Source of the DNA: Sphingobacteriales bacterium | GTDB lineage: Bacteria; Bacteroidota; Bacteroidia; Chitinophagales; Chitinophagaceae | DNA: 44,443 nucleotides | Direction: 5' to 3' | Assembly (NCBI GenBank): GCA_026391525.1 | Contig: JAPLEF010000048.1 | Coordinates: 1 to 44,443, forward strand | Shown: positions 13,653-32,119 of the stretch, piece after piece | Layout of the letters: each line of letters starts with the position of its first letter | How positions within the stretch are numbered: the stretch's first letter is position 1 | Notes under the pieces: generated by a model | The model's input: the letters and a program-made list of their open reading frames with translations, nothing else | What the model was told of the DNA's origin: nothing | Database searches by the model: none | Made by a program: the position numbers and the translations under genes

Positions 13653-15914
13653 ATGAAATTTTGGCTGATTTTTATACTCATTCTTATCATGAAAGCAGGA
13701 GTTTCACAGGTCACTATTTCAGGAAAAGTGACCGATCAGAAGAACCGCCCTCTTTCTGGTGCGAGTGTAGTGATCAAAGATTCATATGATGGTGCCACAA
13801 CCGACAGTTTGGGAAATTTCAGCTTCCAAACCACCGAAACCGGCAATAAACTGTTAGAAATTACATTACTTGGGTACAGTTCTGCTCAAAAGGCTATAGA
13901 AATTGCGAAGGATAACATATTGGTAAATTTTAGCATAAAAGAGCAAATAACGGAAATGAATGCCGTGGTGATTACCGCGGGTGCCTTTGAAGCCAGTGAT
14001 AAGAAGAAAGGAACGGTACTTACTTCACTCGATATAGTTACAACAGCCAGTGCCGAGGGGGATATTACAGGAGCGCTCAAAACCCTTCCGGGTACCCAGC
14101 AGGTTGGCGAAACGGGTGGTTTGTTTGTTAGAGGGGGATCTGCGGCGGAAAGCAAGATCTATATGGATGGAAACCTCGTGAACAACTTTTTTTACTCGGC
14201 TGTACCCGGCATAGCATCAAGGGGTAGATTCAATCCTTTTCTTTTCAAAGGAACCATTTTCAGTACCGGAGGCTATTCGGCATTATATGGACAGGCACTT
14301 TCTTCAGCCTTGGTTTTAGAATCGAACGATTTGCCGGAACGAACAGAAGCCAGCTTATCTCTTTCTGTTGTTGGCCTGGGTGGCGGTATCCAAAAATTAT
14401 CAAAGGATAAAAAAGCTTCCTGGGGTTTTACTTATAACTATTCTAATCTTGCCCTTGCCTTTTCATTGATCAAACAGCAGCAGGATTATTTCAAATTCCC
14501 GGTATTTCATGAAACGGATGCCAATTTCAGAATCCGAACAAAATCTGGAGGAATGATTAAATACTATGGTTACCTGAGTACCGGCGATGTTGGCTTCAGA
14601 AGTGCAGATATCGACTCTTCCATTTTAAAAGATGCTTTCACGCTTCGCAATTTCAACACGTATCAGAATATCAACTGGAAAGAAAATTTGGGGAAGGGAT
14701 GGAAATTCTTCAGCGGCATCAGTTTCAGTACCAATCGGGATGACATCAGTAACGAATTAGAAAATGAAAGCGGCGAAAAAGTAGTCATTACCAATCCAAT
14801 CGGTTACGCTTTCAAGAATTATGAAGTAAAGGCTAAGTCTATTTATACGCAGGCTCGTTTTGTGCTTGAGAAAAAATTGAACGGCCTCAATATCATCCGC
14901 GGAGGTGCTGATTATTTTTACAGCCGCCAGCAAACAGATTTTACGGCTTACGACAGCAGTACTTACCAAACAACGGTTAAAGATAACCTGGTGGCAGTTT
15001 TTGGAGAAACAGATTTTTATCTTTCAAACGACCTTGCCGTAAAACTCGGTGCACGGCTGGAACATTCCAGTATAATGGATGAATGGAATCTTGCTCCTCG
15101 TGTTTCACTTGCTTACAAATTCCGTAACAAAAGTCAGGCATCTTTTGCATACGGCATTTTTTATCAGAATCCTGAAGTACAGTTGCTACCTGCCACCGGT
15201 CCGAAAATCGGATATGCGCAGGCTAGTCATTATATCCTTCAATATCAGAAAATCACCAGCCAGCGAACCTTCCGTACAGAAATATTTTATAAAGATTATC
15301 AAAGGCTACATAAAACAGATTTTGATGCATATGGCAGGCAAGTTGCCGACAATAATAACGGTAAAGGCTATGCTAAGGGAATGGAGTTTTTCTGGAGAGA
15401 TAAGAAAACACTGAAGAATGTGGATTATTGGATATCCTATTCTTTTCTCGATACCAAAAGAGACTATCTCAATTTCCCCATGCAAATGGAACCCAATTTC
15501 GCAGCCCGGCACACGGCTTCTTTTGTAGTGAAGAAATTCGTCTTGCCCTGGAAAACCGGTTTTAACGCCAGTTACAACTTTGCAACAGGAAGACCTTATT
15601 ACCAGATTGTTTACGATGAGGTTCAGAATAAGAATGTGATAACTGACAATGGCCGCACCATTAATTACAATAACCTGGGCTTTAGTGTGAATTACCTTCC
15701 TAATCTTGGTCGTAAAGATAAGAAGGCTTTCATCGTTTGGGTTTTGTCGATCAGTAATGTACTGGGCCAAAAACAGGTTTATAATTATACTTATGCCAGC
15801 ATGAGTACCCAAAAAATTCCCGTGGGTCCGCCATCAAAAAGATTTGTATTCATAGGATGCTTCATGAGTTTTGGAGTAGACCGGTCGCAAGATGCCATCA
15901 ACAACAATTTATAA
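13653..15914 (+). CDS. TonB-dependent receptor with CarboxypepD_reg-like N-terminus
   Basis: The 753-residue protein has a signal peptide (1-18), a carboxypeptidase-regulatory-like beta-sandwich (about 20-95: ISGKVTDQKNRPLSGASVVI), a plug domain (about 105-240: ALKTLPGTQQVGETGGLFVRGG, YMDG) and an outer-membrane barrel rich in alternating aromatic strands. The barrel ends in FGVDRSQDAINNNL rather than the usual terminal aromatic residue. This is an energy-dependent outer-membrane importer. No SusD partner follows, so it is not a classical SusCD polysaccharide system, and siderophore or small-molecule uptake is as likely. The next gene starts 23 bases later and probably belongs to the same transcript. 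Confidence 0.88.
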   Translation: MKFWLIFILILIMKAGVSQVTISGKVTDQKNRPLSGASVVIKDSYDGATTDSLGNFSFQTTETGNKLLEITLLGYSSAQKAIEIAKDNILVNFSIKEQITEMNAVVITAGAFEASDKKKGTVLTSLDIVTTASAEGDITGALKTLPGTQQVGETGGLFVRGGSAAESKIYMDGNLVNNFFYSAVPGIASRGRFNPFLFKGTIFSTGGYSALYGQALSSALVLESNDLPERTEASLSLSVVGLGGGIQKLSKDKKASWGFTYNYSNLALAFSLIKQQQDYFKFPVFHETDANFRIRTKSGGMIKYYGYLSTGDVGFRSADIDSSILKDAFTLRNFNTYQNINWKENLGKGWKFFSGISFSTNRDDISNELENESGEKVVITNPIGYAFKNYEVKAKSIYTQARFVLEKKLNGLNIIRGGADYFYSRQQTDFTAYDSSTYQTTVKDNLVAVFGETDFYLSNDLAVKLGARLEHSSIMDEWNLAPRVSLAYKFRNKSQASFAYGIFYQNPEVQLLPATGPKIGYAQASHYILQYQKITSQRTFRTEIFYKDYQRLHKTDFDAYGRQVADNNNGKGYAKGMEFFWRDKKTLKNVDYWISYSFLDTKRDYLNFPMQMEPNFAARHTASFVVKKFVLPWKTGFNASYNFATGRPYYQIVYDEVQNKNVITDNGRTINYNNLGFSVNYLPNLGRKDKKAFIVWVLSISNVLGQKQVYNYTYASMSTQKIPVGPPSKRFVFIGCFMSFGVDRSQDAINNNL

Positions 15915-22843: not shown

Positions 22844-22914
22844 CAAAACGGCTCTATGGTAAACAGTAGCATGTTTCTTGCCGTTGGTATCTCACCGATT
22901 AAATTTTGAGTAAA

Positions 22915-25900
22915 ATGAGTTTTTCGCCAAAACAAAAAGTTAGGATCGTAACAGCAGCAGCATTATTCGACGGACATGATGCAGCTATCAATATCATGCG
23001 CAGGATCTTGCAGAGCAAAGGTGCAGAAATCATCCATCTAGGGCACAACAGGAGTGTGGCGGAAATTGTGGAATGCGCTATTGAGGAAGATGTACAGGGT
23101 ATTGCCATCACCAGTTATCAGGGAGGACATGTGGAATTTTTCAAGTACATGAAAGATCTTTTAGAAGAAAATGGTTGCGGGCATATCCGGATTTTTGGCG
23201 GCGGAGGTGGAACCATCCTTCCATCTGAAATTGAAGAACTGCATGCTTATGGCATTACCAGGATCTACTCACCTGATGATGGCCGTAAGATGGGGCTGGA
23301 AGGAATGATTGAAGATGTAATCAAACAATGCGATTTCAATCTTAATGGCAACGGCGATTATCCGTACCCGATGACGCTTGGTGAAGCAAAAGATATCCGT
23401 AAAATTGCCCGTCTCATCACTAACGCAGAAAATGGAATTCAAATCACTGCCCATATTGATGATAATATCACTACAACACCAGTCGTTGGCATTACCGGTA
23501 CAGGTGGCGCAGGAAAATCTTCGGTAACCGATGAATTGGTACGGCGTTTTCTGAATACCTATACCGATAAAACCATCGCTGTCATTTCAGTAGATCCATC
23601 CAAAAAGAAAACCGGTGGAGCGTTGCTTGGAGATAGGATCCGCATGAATGCCATTTCATCAAACAGGGCTTACATGCGTAGCCTGGCAACCCGTGAAAGT
23701 GATAAAGCCCTCAGCCGCTATGTGAAAGAGGCACTTGAAATATGTTGCCATGCAGGTTACGACCTTGTGATTCTTGAAAGTGCAGGCGTTGGGCAGAGCG
23801 ATGCATCCATCCTCGATTATTGCAACCTCAGCATGTATGTGATGACGCCGGAATACGGTGCCCCTTCACAACTGGAAAAAATAAATATGCTCGATTATGC
23901 AGATCTGGTTTGCGTAAATAAATTTGATAAAGCTGGTGCTTTGGATGCCTTGCATGATGTTCGTAAACAATACAAGCGCAACCACGGGTTATGGGATGCC
24001 AAAGATGAAGATTTGCCTGTGGTAGGTACTATAGCCTCTCAGTTTAACGACACCGGAGTGAACGAGCTTTTTGAAAGACTGATGGAAAAACTGCTTGAAA
24101 AAACAGGAGTCAGTTTCAAAGGCCCGATTGAACATCATCCACATCTGAAAGATACCAGCAGCCAGTCTACCATCATTCCGCCATCACGGGTACGTTATCT
24201 TGCAGAAATTGCTGAAACCCTTTCTGGTTACGACAGCTGGGCAAAATCGCAGGCTGATCTTGCTTCTAAACTTTTTCAACTTGAGGGGGTGATTTCAATC
24301 CTTGGTGATTCCGGTGATGCTGACCAATCTGTGATTCAAACGCTGCAAATTGAAAAAGAAAATATCAAACAACAGATCGATAGGCACAACCTGCAATTGA
24401 TAGCAGGATGGGCGTTGATGCGTGAACGTTACCTGCAGCCAAATTATGTTTTCGAAGTGAGAGGCAAGGAAATTCGCCAACCGCTTACCTATAAAAGTTT
24501 ATCCGGAACCATTGTTCCAAAAGTTGTATTGCCAAAGTATAAGGACTGGGGCGATATCCTGCTCTGGCAGTTGCAAGAGAATGTTCCCGGTTCATTTCCA
24601 TTTGCGGCAGGTGTTTTCCCATTAAAAAGAGAAGGCGAAGACCCCACCAGGATGTTTGCCGGTGAAGGCGGGCCCGAACGCACGAATCGCAGGTTCCATT
24701 ATGTTAGTCTTGGCCAGCCGGCAAAAAGATTGAGTACCGCTTTCGACAGTGTTACTTTATATGGAGAAGATCCTGCTCATCGGCCTGATATTTATGGAAA
24801 AGTGGGCAATAGTGGGGTGAGTATCGCTACGGTAGATGATGCCAAAAAATTGTACAGCGGGTTTGATCTTTGTGATCCCAAAACATCGGTGAGCATGACC
24901 ATCAATGGTCCGGCGCCTATTTTACTCGCCTTTTTTATGAATGCGGCTATCGACCAACAATGTGAGAAGTACATTCTGGAGCATGGGCTGAATGAAGAAG
25001 TGAACAAACGTATTGAATCTAAATATGCAATAGATCAATTGCCTAATTATACCGGGATGGATGGAAGCCCGGTTTGGGCAAGGCAGGGCACTATGCAGGG
25101 GAGCTTGCCTGAAGGTAATGATGGCTTAGGCTTACGATTGCTTGGTTTGAGCGGCGATGATGTATTGCCTCCTGATGTTTATGCCAGCATCAGGGCCAAA
25201 GCTTTAAGTACGGTGAGAGGTACTGTACAGGCGGATATCTTAAAAGAGGATCAGGCTCAGAATACCTGCATCTTTTCAACAGAATTCGCACTAAAACTGA
25301 TGGGTGATGTGCAACAGTATTTTATCGATCATGAAGTGCAGAATTTTTACAGCGTAAGCATCAGTGGTTATCATATTGCTGAGGCAGGGGCAAACCCCAT
25401 CACCCAATTGGCGTTCACCTTAGCCAATGGCTTTACCTATGTAGAGTATTATCTAAGCAGGGGGATGAAGATTGATGATTTCGCACCAAACCTTTCTTTC
25501 TTCTTCAGCAACGGCATGGATCCGGAGTACAGTGTGATAGGCCGTGTTGCCCGTCGCATCTGGGCAAAAGCGATGAAACATAAGTATAAGGCCAATAGCC
25601 GTAGCCAGAAACTGAAATATCATATCCAAACCAGTGGCAGAAGTTTACATGCCCAGGAAATCGACTTCAACGATATCCGCACCAGTTTACAGGCACTGTA
25701 TGCCATATACGACAATTGTAATTCACTGCATACTAACGCTTACGATGAGGCGATAACCACACCCACAGAGGAAAGTGTTCGAAGGGCCATGGCCATCCAA
25801 CTGATCATCAACAGGGAACTGGGTACGGCAAAGAACGAGAACCCTAATCAGGGTTCATTTCTCATTGAAGAACTTACCGACCTGGTAGAACAGGCAGTGA

Positions 25901-26316
25901 TGACTGAATTCAACCGGATTACGGAAAGAGGAGGAGTATTGGGTGCTATGGAAAGGATGTATCAACGCAACAAGATCCAGGAGGAAAGTCTCTATTACGA
26001 AACACTGAAACATACCGGCGAATATCCGATTGTAGGCGTGAATACTTTCTTAAGCAAGCAAGGTTCGCCTACGGTATTGCCTTCTGAAGTGATTCGTTCA
26101 ACCGGTGATGAAAAAGAAAAACAGATTGATGCATTGCTCGCTTTCAAAAAAAGGCATGCAGCACAATCCGCTGAAAGGCTTAAAAAGCTTCAACAGGTTG
26201 CCATAGCTAACGGAAATCTTTTTGAGGAATTGATGGAAACCGTAAAATATTGCAGTCTGGGCGAAATCACCAATGCCCTTTACCAGGTGGGTGGCCAATA
26301 CCGCAGGAATATGTAA
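22915..26316 (+). CDS. icmF: Fused isobutyryl-CoA mutase-type B12 enzyme (IcmF)
   Basis: I use the ATG at 22915 rather than the TTG at 22906. The 1133-residue protein is a three-part fusion: a B12-binding domain (about 5-140, [26 protein letters not shown]), a MeaI/MeaB-type G-protein chaperone (about 190-410, [13 protein letters not shown]-loop, NKFD), and the mutase barrel (about 520-1130, with YHIAEAGAN carrying the catalytic His). IcmF interconverts isobutyryl-CoA and butyryl-CoA using adenosylcobalamin while its GTPase gates cofactor loading. Gln782 (in AQNTCIF) stands where methylmalonyl-CoA mutase has Arg207, which fits a non-carboxylated substrate. Leu570 (VFPLKRE) may replace the Phe of Geobacillus IcmF. 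An insert of about 65 residues ([12 protein letters not shown] to LSGDDVLPP) lengthens it compared with Geobacillus. Confidence 0.93.
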
Positions 26317-29872: not shown

Positions 29873-30937
29873 TTATGGCAGATGATGCTCCGCCTTAGCA
29901 GGCTTCAATTCGCCCGGACCAAACCTTGGGTTTTTTAAAAAACTGCTGTCGGTTAAGGTATACAGAAAATAAACAAGATCGTTTTTCTCTTTGTTGCTCA
30001 TGCTGATGCGGTTTCTGAGTGAACTATCCAATGTAGCCTGTTCGGTATGAATGCCATTGCGGTAATGATCAATCACCTGAAACAAAGAATAAATGCTTCC
30101 GTCGTGCATGTATGGATAAGTCAATTGTACATTTCTTAAACCCGGAACTTTGAATTTCAAGGAATCATCAGGATTATTGCTGATTTGCTGCCGGCCGATA
30201 TCTTTAAACCGGTTCAGTGGCAGTCCGTTGTTTCGGAAGCTATTATCGGTAAACAAAGGCTCACGGTGACACCCGGAGCAATTGGCTTTAAATAAGGCAT
30301 ATCCCCGTTTTTCATATTCAGTGAATGGCAACTCTCCCCTCATCATTTTATCGTATTTACTATTCGCTGAAATCAGGCTGCCGGTAAATTGTGCAAGTGC
30401 TTTTAACATGCCCTGGCTGCTGATGCCGGCATTGCCAAACGCATTTTTGAACATTCGCCGGTATTCGGGATCCTTTTTCAATTTAAGCATCACCGAATCG
30501 AGGTTTTCACCCATTTCATTCGGAGCAGTGAGCGGTGCTAGAGGTTGAACTTCCAGGTGATTGATAGCGCCATCCCAATGCATCTCTTGCATCCAGGCGA
30601 GATTTACCAGAGCCGGGGCATTCCTGGTGGTGAACCCGTCATTCACGCCATGGCTCAGGTCGTGGTCGAAAGTTACAAAACCTGCAAATTGCTGGTGACA
30701 ACTGGCACAACTGATTTCGCCGTTCTTGCTCAGCCTTGCGTCGTAAAATAATTTTTTTCCAAGTTGAAATCCTTGCTCAGTAAGTTGGTTTTTTTCAAAG
30801 AGGTTTTTTTCCGGCTTAGGCCAGCCCATCGGGATTTCCAGTTTCAATGGTTCAGGTTGATCCTGTTCGTTGCGGGTAAGGCTCTGCATGAAGATGCCCA
30901 AAAAGACAATGAAACATATGGTGCAGGCTTTTTTCAG
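29873..30937 (-). CDS. MbnH/MauG-like di-haem c-type cytochrome (peroxidase family)
   Basis: The mature protein has two CxxCH haem sites: CASCH (Cys77-His81 from the CTG start) and CSGCH (Cys220-His224). Other family motifs are LGKKLFYDARLSKNGEISC, TRNAPALVN, and YPYMHDGS near the second haem. This is the bacterial cytochrome c peroxidase/MauG family. The gene overlaps the preceding MbnP-like gene in a CTGA tetramer. The signal peptide (KKACTICFIVFLGIFMQSL) can only be translated from the CTG at 30937, because an in-frame stop lies upstream; the TTG at 30901 or a later ATG would cut off or lose it. The di-haem enzyme paired with MbnP (MbnH) oxidises a Trp of MbnP, so I infer the same here; plain peroxidase activity is the alternative. 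Confidence 0.85.
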   Translation of the reverse strand: MKKACTICFIVFLGIFMQSLTRNEQDQPEPLKLEIPMGWPKPEKNLFEKNQLTEQGFQLGKKLFYDARLSKNGEISCASCHQQFAGFVTFDHDLSHGVNDGFTTRNAPALVNLAWMQEMHWDGAINHLEVQPLAPLTAPNEMGENLDSVMLKLKKDPEYRRMFKNAFGNAGISSQGMLKALAQFTGSLISANSKYDKMMRGELPFTEYEKRGYALFKANCSGCHREPLFTDNSFRNNGLPLNRFKDIGRQQISNNPDDSLKFKVPGLRNVQLTYPYMHDGSIYSLFQVIDHYRNGIHTEQATLDSSLRNRISMSNKEKNDLVYFLYTLTDSSFLKNPRFGPGELKPAKAEHHLP

Positions 30938-31689
30938 GGTACTACGTTTAAAGTGAACAATGCTTCAAAGTTAGCAGCCATTTTTTGGGCCAGCAAACCC
31001 GGTTGCATGCAAACAGGAATTTCTGCAATTCGGATGGGGTTTACCGCATCCCAGTAACGGTCGAGGTTAAGCGAAATAGTAAGCCGGGTTATTTTTTGAT
31101 TGGATATTTCAACACTTGAATCTCCATCTACATGAAGCCTTATGATTCTGGCCACATTGTTGCCCGCTTTATACCCTCCGATATGGTGCTCTATCCGTTG
31201 TAAATCTGCTGATGAGGATGAAGAACGGCCTTCCAACTTAAAAAAAACATAGCCACTGTTCCAGGTCCAGAACATATCGTTCAGTGCATCTAAAGCGCCT
31301 GATTGGGCACCGCTGCAATTGGAAACACTATCTATGCCCAGTAAAAAAGAAATGCCCTTGTATTTTCCGGGAGGTAATTTCAAATTTATTTCGTTTGTAC
31401 CTGCTGCATTAATGAGATAATAGGGTAATGCATTGATTGGCTGATCAAGGCCCTCTACTTTTATTTGACCGATATAATATTTCAATTTATAGATATTGTA
31501 ATTTTCTCCAAATGCATTTTGGTAAGTGCTGTCTCTAAATACGATAGGTTCGCCATTAGCGCTATGGGTAAAACTGATTTGCAATTCGCCATCCTGTGCC
31601 ATAGCCACTTGATCTAACAGTGAACATGGCATGATTAAAACCATTGCTTTCATCAGCAATAAAGACATGAAGTGTGGCCTTTTATTCAT
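30934..31689 (-). CDS. MbnP family (copper-binding) periplasmic protein
   Basis: The 251-residue protein has a signal sequence ending near AMAQ, then QISFTHSANGEPIVF, NAFGENYNIYKLKYYIG, LPPGKYKGISFLLGID and MFWTWNSGYVFFKLEG. This last motif, with Trp141 and Trp143, is the hallmark of the MbnP family. An HH pair (EHHIGGY) and HVDG are candidate metal ligands. In methanotrophs MbnP binds copper after a Trp is converted to kynurenine by MbnH, and the same operon makes methanobactin; here the partner gene follows with a 4-base overlap but no methanobactin genes are seen. It overlaps the upstream arfB gene by 8 bases. Confidence 0.88.
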   Translation of the reverse strand: MNKRPHFMSLLLMKAMVLIMPCSLLDQVAMAQDGELQISFTHSANGEPIVFRDSTYQNAFGENYNIYKLKYYIGQIKVEGLDQPINALPYYLINAAGTNEINLKLPPGKYKGISFLLGIDSVSNCSGAQSGALDALNDMFWTWNSGYVFFKLEGRSSSSSADLQRIEHHIGGYKAGNNVARIIRLHVDGDSSVEISNQKITRLTISLNLDRYWDAVNPIRIAEIPVCMQPGLLAQKMAANFEALFTLNVVP

Positions 31690-32119
31690 CTGAACTGATT
31701 TTCTTTCTACCTGCTTTTATGGTGGAAACCATTTTTTTAGATTCTAGTCTTTTTTCCTTCACCGCTGCAGGTAATTTCGTAGGTTTTCTTTTTTTGGGCA
31801 CTTGTAAGGCTTTGTAAACAAGCTGGTTCAATTTTTTTATAAGAAGGGCCTTGTTTTCTAACTGAGTACGGGCTGAAGAACAACTTGAAACCAGGAATCC
31901 TGTTGAGTTGATCTTTGATGATAATTTTTCTGATAAGCGTTGTTTTTCATCATCACTGAAAAGGGCAGACGAAAGTACATGCCATTTGCCGGAAACCATC
32001 GTTTCTACTTTGTTTACATGCTGACCTCCTTTACCACCACTTCTGGCCGTTTTAAACTTTAATTCTGTCGAGATATCGGTCATATTCACAAATTTACCAA
32101 TTTTACCTGCCTTTTTCAT
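31682..32119 (-). CDS. arfB: Alternative ribosome-rescue factor ArfB (peptidyl-tRNA hydrolase)
   Basis: The 145-residue protein has the GGQ catalytic motif in SGGKGGQHVNKVET (Gly31-Gly32-Gln33) and a basic C-terminal tail (KKRKPTKLPAAVKEKRLESKK). That is the ArfB (YaeJ/ICT1) plan: the tail probes an empty mRNA channel and the GGQ loop frees the nascent chain from a stalled ribosome. The length fits the family (about 140). The ATG at 32083 (MTDISTELKFK) gives a more usual N-terminus of 133 residues and may be the true start. It is the first gene of the overlapping arfB-MbnP-MbnH set. Confidence 0.9.
   Translation of the reverse strand: MKKAGKIGKFVNMTDISTELKFKTARSGGKGGQHVNKVETMVSGKWHVLSSALFSDDEKQRLSEKLSSKINSTGFLVSSCSSARTQLENKALLIKKLNQLVYKALQVPKKRKPTKLPAAVKEKRLESKKMVSTIKAGRKKISSDE

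Follow-up and report, generated by a model that had tools for sequence, protein, structure and literature searches.

A free-standing MbnP/MbnH-like gene pair downstream of arfB in a Sphingobacteriales bacterium and its counterparts across the Bacteroidia

Introduction

The closest described counterparts of the gene pair reported here are MbnP and MbnH of Methylosinus trichosporium. According to a PNAS study of Methylosinus MbnP, MbnH reportedly converts the first tryptophan of a WxW motif to kynurenine, and Cu(I) is said to be bound by a histidine, a methionine and solvent, with the kynurenine nearby; the MbnP is represented by PDB entry 7l6g, and the di-haem enzyme of entry 6e1c is, we presume, the MbnH of the same organism. 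In Methylocystis iwaonis (L157), the corresponding pair lies inside a methanobactin (mbn) operon, adjoining mbnB, mbnC and mbnM. Deinococcus radiodurans (L159) carries an MbnP and a cytochrome-c peroxidase as a free-standing pair, followed by one hypothetical gene and then by CopC and CopD. The CorA/CorB and MopE/SACCP systems of methanotrophs, in which a MauG-like enzyme accompanies a copper site with kynurenine formed from Trp, also resemble the module proposed below. In one report, the copper of CorA is held by two histidines and water with kynurenine close by, and a MauG-like partner is suggested as the oxidant of CorA (PMC3912023). A 2013 genome-mining study describes the MbnP–MbnH pair as conserved far beyond methanobactin producers and reports no marked sequence similarity of CorA and MopE to MbnP (PMC3621798).

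Here we describe a pair encoded on a 44,443-nucleotide stretch of Sphingobacteriales DNA, hereafter the window. The pair is genuine and intact: an ordinary, free-standing representative of the Bacteroidota branch of MbnP/MbnH-like pairs. One further pair changes little; the interest lies in the breadth of its distribution and in its unstudied partners elsewhere.

We consider it probable that the two genes form a copper-protein module of the periplasm, belonging to the Bacteroidota branch of MbnP, in which Trp141 would be converted to kynurenine at a Cu(I) site. The MbnP would be exported and would fold like its Methylosinus counterpart, while the MbnH-like enzyme, encoded directly downstream, would be loaded with haem in the periplasm and reach a high-valent state. 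This enzyme would oxidise Trp141, the first tryptophan of the WxW motif, to kynurenine, which would complete a mononuclear Cu(I) site together with His169 and Met139, and the MbnP could then hold copper for periplasmic or respiratory use. Family membership, predicted fold, conserved residues, linkage and co-occurrence come from the present analysis; the proposed chemistry, ligands and copper role are carried over from the Methylosinus pair; the physiological use of the copper is a guess.

Results and Discussion

Organization of the locus

Three genes run in the order arfB, mbnP-like and di-haem mbnH-like on the minus strand:

31682..32119, minus strand: arfB, upstream and presumed to belong to the same operon; 108.1 bits against NF006718 (ArfB; cut-off 100)
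30934..31689, minus strand: mbnP-like gene, encoding a PF20243 MbnP-family protein of 251 amino acids with an N-terminal segment resembling an export signal
29873..30937, minus strand: mbnH-like gene, di-haem MauG-type; likely CTG start at 30937 (TTG at 30901 by the ORF finder)
30934..30937, minus strand: CTGA, overlap of the mbnP stop and the proposed mbnH start, read from the sequence and compared with other paired loci

A sequence-only reading of this DNA had placed the pair behind arfB and had its two genes overlap by four bases. The first point is borne out by the NF006718 match and by an eight-base overlap of arfB with mbnP, and the second holds given the CTG start, which is likely from the sequence. 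The mbnH-like frame remains open upstream of TTG 30901 as far as CTG 30937, giving an overlap of exactly four bases, and a start at the TTG would remove most of the hydrophobic, export-signal-like segment of the enzyme (judged by eye). In a close set of relatives, 12 of the 33 further paired loci have a start codon at the overlap position (ATG in five, TTG in seven, and none in the remaining 21), as do 19 of 82 paired loci in a wider set (ATG in 16, TTG in three). The Methylocystis pair resembles that of the window in gene order, in an identical four-base overlap and in its enzyme, which is 37% identical. The CTGA overlap would couple translation of mbnP and mbnH; arfB probably lies outside the mechanism.

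No match to methanobactin biosynthesis, TonB-receptor or copper-regulator families was found among 32 Pfam-scanned window ORFs (35 ORFs reach at least 150 amino acids, the other three overlapping larger scanned ones), a scan that a short methanobactin precursor peptide would escape. The window thus differs from the Methylosinus and Methylocystis systems, and with the same reservation about a short precursor the earlier statement that no precursor, TonB importer or copper regulator is adjacent holds. One window ORF, at 13653–15914 and 15 kb away, has a CarboxypepD_reg domain. The MbnB family (PF05114) had no match in the 2.85-Mb genome (188 contigs, 99.94% complete), with matches in two of 14 control genomes. 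The window shows no copper gene next to the pair, and none was seen in the neighbour clusters identified in close relatives, namely those present in at least four loci, which tells against the proposed copper role; in its favour, CopC and CopD stand near the pair of Deinococcus radiodurans, a member of another phylum. Elsewhere in the window, positions 22906–26316 encode a 1136-amino-acid, IcmF-like protein in which B12-binding, MeaB GTPase and acyl-CoA mutase domains are fused.

The MbnP-like protein and its predicted copper site

The residues of interest in the MbnP-like protein are as follows:

31249..31275, minus strand: MFWTWNSGY, residues 139–147, with Met139, Trp141 (predicted kynurenine) and Trp143
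31183..31185, minus strand: His169 (HxGG), predicted copper ligand, aligned with a histidine of Methylocystis MbnP

Assignment to the MbnP family, as in the sequence-only reading, is confirmed by a score of 140.1 bits against PF20243 (curated cut-off 27). Against the equivalog model TIGR04052 (MbnP_like_WxW), the protein reaches 40.5 bits, below the cut-off of 140, a miss that counts against the proposed copper site. All four other Bacteroidota MbnPs tested fall short too (42 to 69.2 bits), as does that of Deinococcus radiodurans (85.2 bits), whereas Methylocystis MbnP passes with 264.4 bits. The four-cysteine motif, adopted as a mark of the TIGR04052 group from the molecule name of 7l6g, is absent; the window MbnP has two cysteines outside the signal-like segment, in contrast to the four-cysteine motif of the Methylosinus protein.

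A PDB sequence search gave no match with the window MbnP (E up to 1) or with an MbnP profile (E up to 10). Its predicted fold matches 7l6g, with 15% identity over the aligned fold, and the link to 7l6g was made through this fold and via Methylocystis MbnP. CorA and MopE were not among the fold matches listed, which excludes nothing. The closest named relatives come from Ferruginibacter and other Chitinophagaceae MAGs.

In an alignment of 157 MbnP rows, Trp141 is present in 157, Trp143 in 155, Met139 in 154 and His169 in 150; the window is represented three times among these rows, which include three further duplicates, and their selection is biased towards the motif, L002–L042 having been found by patterns including NDMFWTWN and the rest by a profile containing it. 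All four columns are invariant in 11 MbnPs that include those of Deinococcus, Pseudoalteromonas and Methylocystis. The sequence of 7l6g reads M-A-W-N-W and contains a His-x-Gly, the same M-x-W-x-W and H-x-G as in the window protein, and we take the WxW, Met and His to be the MbnP site residues. Conservation of this motif and histidine as far as Methylocystis and 7l6g, together with the MbnP fold and the PF20243 and PF03150 family matches of the two proteins, supports a kynurenine–copper site. Three paired MbnPs with an intact WxW (L100, L110 and L128) have Asp at the His169 column, which argues against it.

Loss of the WxW had been expected in MbnPs without an adjacent enzyme, an idea that was rejected, the motif being kept at 23 of 24 such loci. 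Trp143 is missing from only two of the 157 rows, the unpaired L122 and the third tandem copy L078, both of which also lack His169. This joint loss is suggestive, the cases being too few for more, and these two copies are possibly inactive or repurposed.

The MbnH-like di-haem enzyme

Four sites of the enzyme were compared across 130 aligned rows:

30695..30709, minus strand: CASCH, first haem site; Cys and His in 130/130 rows
30575..30577, minus strand: Trp121 (HWDG); Trp in 119/130 rows, His in 7/130; invariant in a five-sequence alignment with MauG
30266..30280, minus strand: CSGCH, second haem site; Cys and His in 129/130 rows, with one gap
30062..30064, minus strand: Tyr292 (IDHY; residue 280 from the TTG start), haem-ligand column; Tyr in 125/130 rows

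The description of this protein as a di-haem MauG-like enzyme with two CxxCH sites, made from the sequence alone, agrees with its score of 177.2 bits against PF03150 (CCP_MauG), and the two sites are as found in the MauG/MbnH branch of that family. Its top NCBIfam match is TIGR04039 (MbnH family di-heme enzyme) at 226.8 bits. This falls below the cut-off of 362.85, a score passed in two of 295 genomes of the same class, and the shortfall again counts against the proposed chemistry. The top PDB match is 6e1c (E 7.5e-48), and the solved peroxidases 1iqc and 3o5c also align.

Glu141, like Trp121, is invariant in the five-sequence alignment, as in the MauG/MbnH branch; presumably, the Trp121 column corresponds to the tryptophan between the haems of MauG, and Glu141 to the distal glutamate. 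The counterpart of Tyr292 in peroxidase 3o5c is Met266 and in MauG 3l4m, going by where the aligned ranges end, residue 294; MauG and Methylocystis MbnH likewise have Tyr in this column. This replacement of the peroxidase Met by Tyr supports oxidation of the MbnP. Against it, some paired enzymes lack the inter-haem Trp (among them the seven rows with His, such as L066) or the Tyr: L028 has Phe at the ligand column and Leu in place of the Trp, and L087 has Phe in place of the Tyr.

Pairing and descent across the Bacteroidia

MbnP is present in 218 of 295 genomes of the same class (Bacteroidia) and in 72 of 98 of the same family. A gene of the MbnB/TglH/ChrH family occurs in only 27 of the 295, 22 of these being among the 218 with MbnP, so it is the rule for the pair to occur without a methanobactin operon. 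The sequence-only reading of a free-standing copper module therefore needs amendment on one point: the families, the pairing, the lack of any sign of a methanobactin operon and a Trp-oxidising module, as judged from homology, fold and conserved residues, all stand, but its implied rarity does not. If the enzyme truly makes kynurenine, Trp-to-kynurenine maturation of copper sites would be frequent in a large bacterial group, mostly without an MbnB-family gene.

An MbnH-like match was found in 214 of the 218 genomes with MbnP versus 28 of the 77 without (Fisher p 5.6e-31, ignoring shared ancestry), a match being a TIGR04039 hit at E 0.001, which includes general peroxidases (E. coli matches). 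The homologue search for MbnP–MbnH pairs proposed in the earlier reading gave 149 distinct MbnP loci (excluding L001, which is the window, and the duplicates L054, L095 and L103), examined with flanks of about 1.4 to 6 kb. The enzyme is directly downstream on the same strand at 118, nearby at two and not in view at 24, and five loci end at a contig edge. The wider loci among these are a non-random sample, comprising the best 30 matches (L043–L072, about 1.4 kb of flank) and 80 picked by hand from the matches listed (mostly about 2.4 kb).

In the close set, all three genomes that lack an adjacent enzyme (L019, L039 and L041) contain a candidate MbnH-like gene elsewhere, at 60, 53 and 45% identity, respectively; in that of L019, a TAA was counted inside the matched frame. 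Only one match to the window enzyme occurs in its genome. Two high TIGR04039 scorers, L153 and L154, offered no bridge to true MbnP, none appearing among their listed neighbour ORFs of at least 150 amino acids. Six Chitinophagaceae-type loci (L004, L005, L010, L020, L021 and L022) carry a second, distinct di-haem MauG-like group about 3–5 kb upstream of mbnP.

A FastTree tree was built from 116 adjacent enzymes, nine more enzymes of the same loci that are not adjacent, and six further sequences (Methylocystis, Pseudoalteromonas, Deinococcus, MauG, L153 and L154). Seven nested clades around the window enzyme, of 2 to 16 members and with supports of 0.44 to 0.95, contain adjacent enzymes only. 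Across 116 pairs (the 118 adjacent pairs minus those with an enzyme ORF of 280 amino acids or fewer), MbnP and MbnH tree distances correlate with r 0.67, the largest of 999 shuffles giving 0.14, though shared ancestry can also produce such a correlation. Linkage, co-occurrence, this correlation and the distant MbnH-like genes of the unpaired close-set genomes all support enzymatic maturation of the MbnP; the 24 loci with no enzyme in view, the chance that the distant MbnH-like genes serve another MbnP, the TAA counted in that of L019, the neglect of shared ancestry in the co-occurrence and tree statistics, and the inclusion of general peroxidases among the TIGR04039 matches weigh on the other side.

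These data bear on two alternatives. The enzyme could be a di-haem cytochrome c peroxidase of the ordinary, H2O2-removing kind, with MbnP as its unmodified metal-binding partner, as its place in the PF03150 peroxidase superfamily and its alignment with solved peroxidases would allow; we consider this unlikely in view of the Tyr at the position of the peroxidase Met and of the linkage with WxW proteins at most loci. Alternatively, the WxW could be modified in another way, by hydroxylation or by a tryptophan tryptophylquinone-like Trp–Trp cross-link, so that a redox cofactor and not a copper site would result. Conservation of both tryptophans fits this idea, as does a score of 193.3 bits, below the cut-off, against the MauG model TIGR03791. 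Its chances nevertheless appear slim: TIGR04039 outscores the MauG model, the fold match is to MbnP, and 7l6g has the same His and Met columns.

Gene neighbourhoods and candidate partners

In the close set, arfB lies directly upstream at 34 of 42 loci, and three of the other eight begin within mbnP; it was detected at none of 107 wider loci (L095 carries arfB but was left out as a duplicate of L015). The genes that recur around the pair in the close set, their clusters being matched by eye to window proteins, are a divergent PcrB-type gene (35 loci), a LytTR regulator (27) and a histidine kinase (20), surroundings that are a kept housekeeping block.

Other genomes of the class offer different company. 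A cluster of small Cys-rich proteins occurs near MbnP at 39 loci (e.g., L102:4257-4640 and L044:899-1279); these look exported, share a C...CxGxC pattern (CxGxC invariant in 24 aligned) and a C-terminal PP, and those that were scanned matched neither Pfam nor NCBIfam. A second cluster lies beside MbnP at 35 loci (e.g., L044:2057-3124), with a CxxC near the start and, in some members, many histidines; two cysteines are invariant in 18 aligned sequences, members scanned had no Pfam match, and the label "outer-membrane-type" that we give it is a guess. Further neighbours, with families named from one representative each, are a YHYH protein (26 loci), an ECF sigma factor (17) and a Metal_resist-like protein (12, below the Metal_resist cut-off), all seen only where the enzyme is adjacent (26/26, 17/17 and 12/12). 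L118, L137 and L142 share the order ECF sigma, Metal_resist-like, MbnP, MbnH and YHYH protein. Together, these partner genes suggest metal handling.

The window genome gave no match to the small Cys-rich profile (control genomes 3/3 positive) or, in searches run without a positive control, to the YHYH and outer-membrane-type profiles. The pair could instead ride along in the arfB operon as a fixed passenger of unrelated function, its copper role lost in this clade. This would account for the missing matches, for the frequent upstream arfB and for the lack of visible copper neighbours, but is highly improbable given the intact site residues and haem sites and the MbnH-like genes found elsewhere in three close-set genomes without an adjacent enzyme.

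Returning to a kynurenine–copper protein as the preferred reading, we hold tentatively, at just short of an even chance for the whole, that MbnH-type enzymes make such proteins in Bacteroidia at large, as a general periplasmic system and not as a speciality of methanotrophs. The genomic forms of this system would number three or more: arfB-mbnP-mbnH in the Chitinophagaceae-type set; the small Cys-rich and outer-membrane-type CxxC proteins with MbnP, with or without MbnH; and ECF sigma, a heavy-metal-resistance-like protein, MbnP, MbnH and YHYH protein. As part of the same tentative proposal, the partners in the second and third forms would be uncharacterised components of a copper pathway, and these conserved genes elsewhere in the class offer a route to the function of the system. 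The YHYH representative that was scanned (L119) has a T9SS tail.
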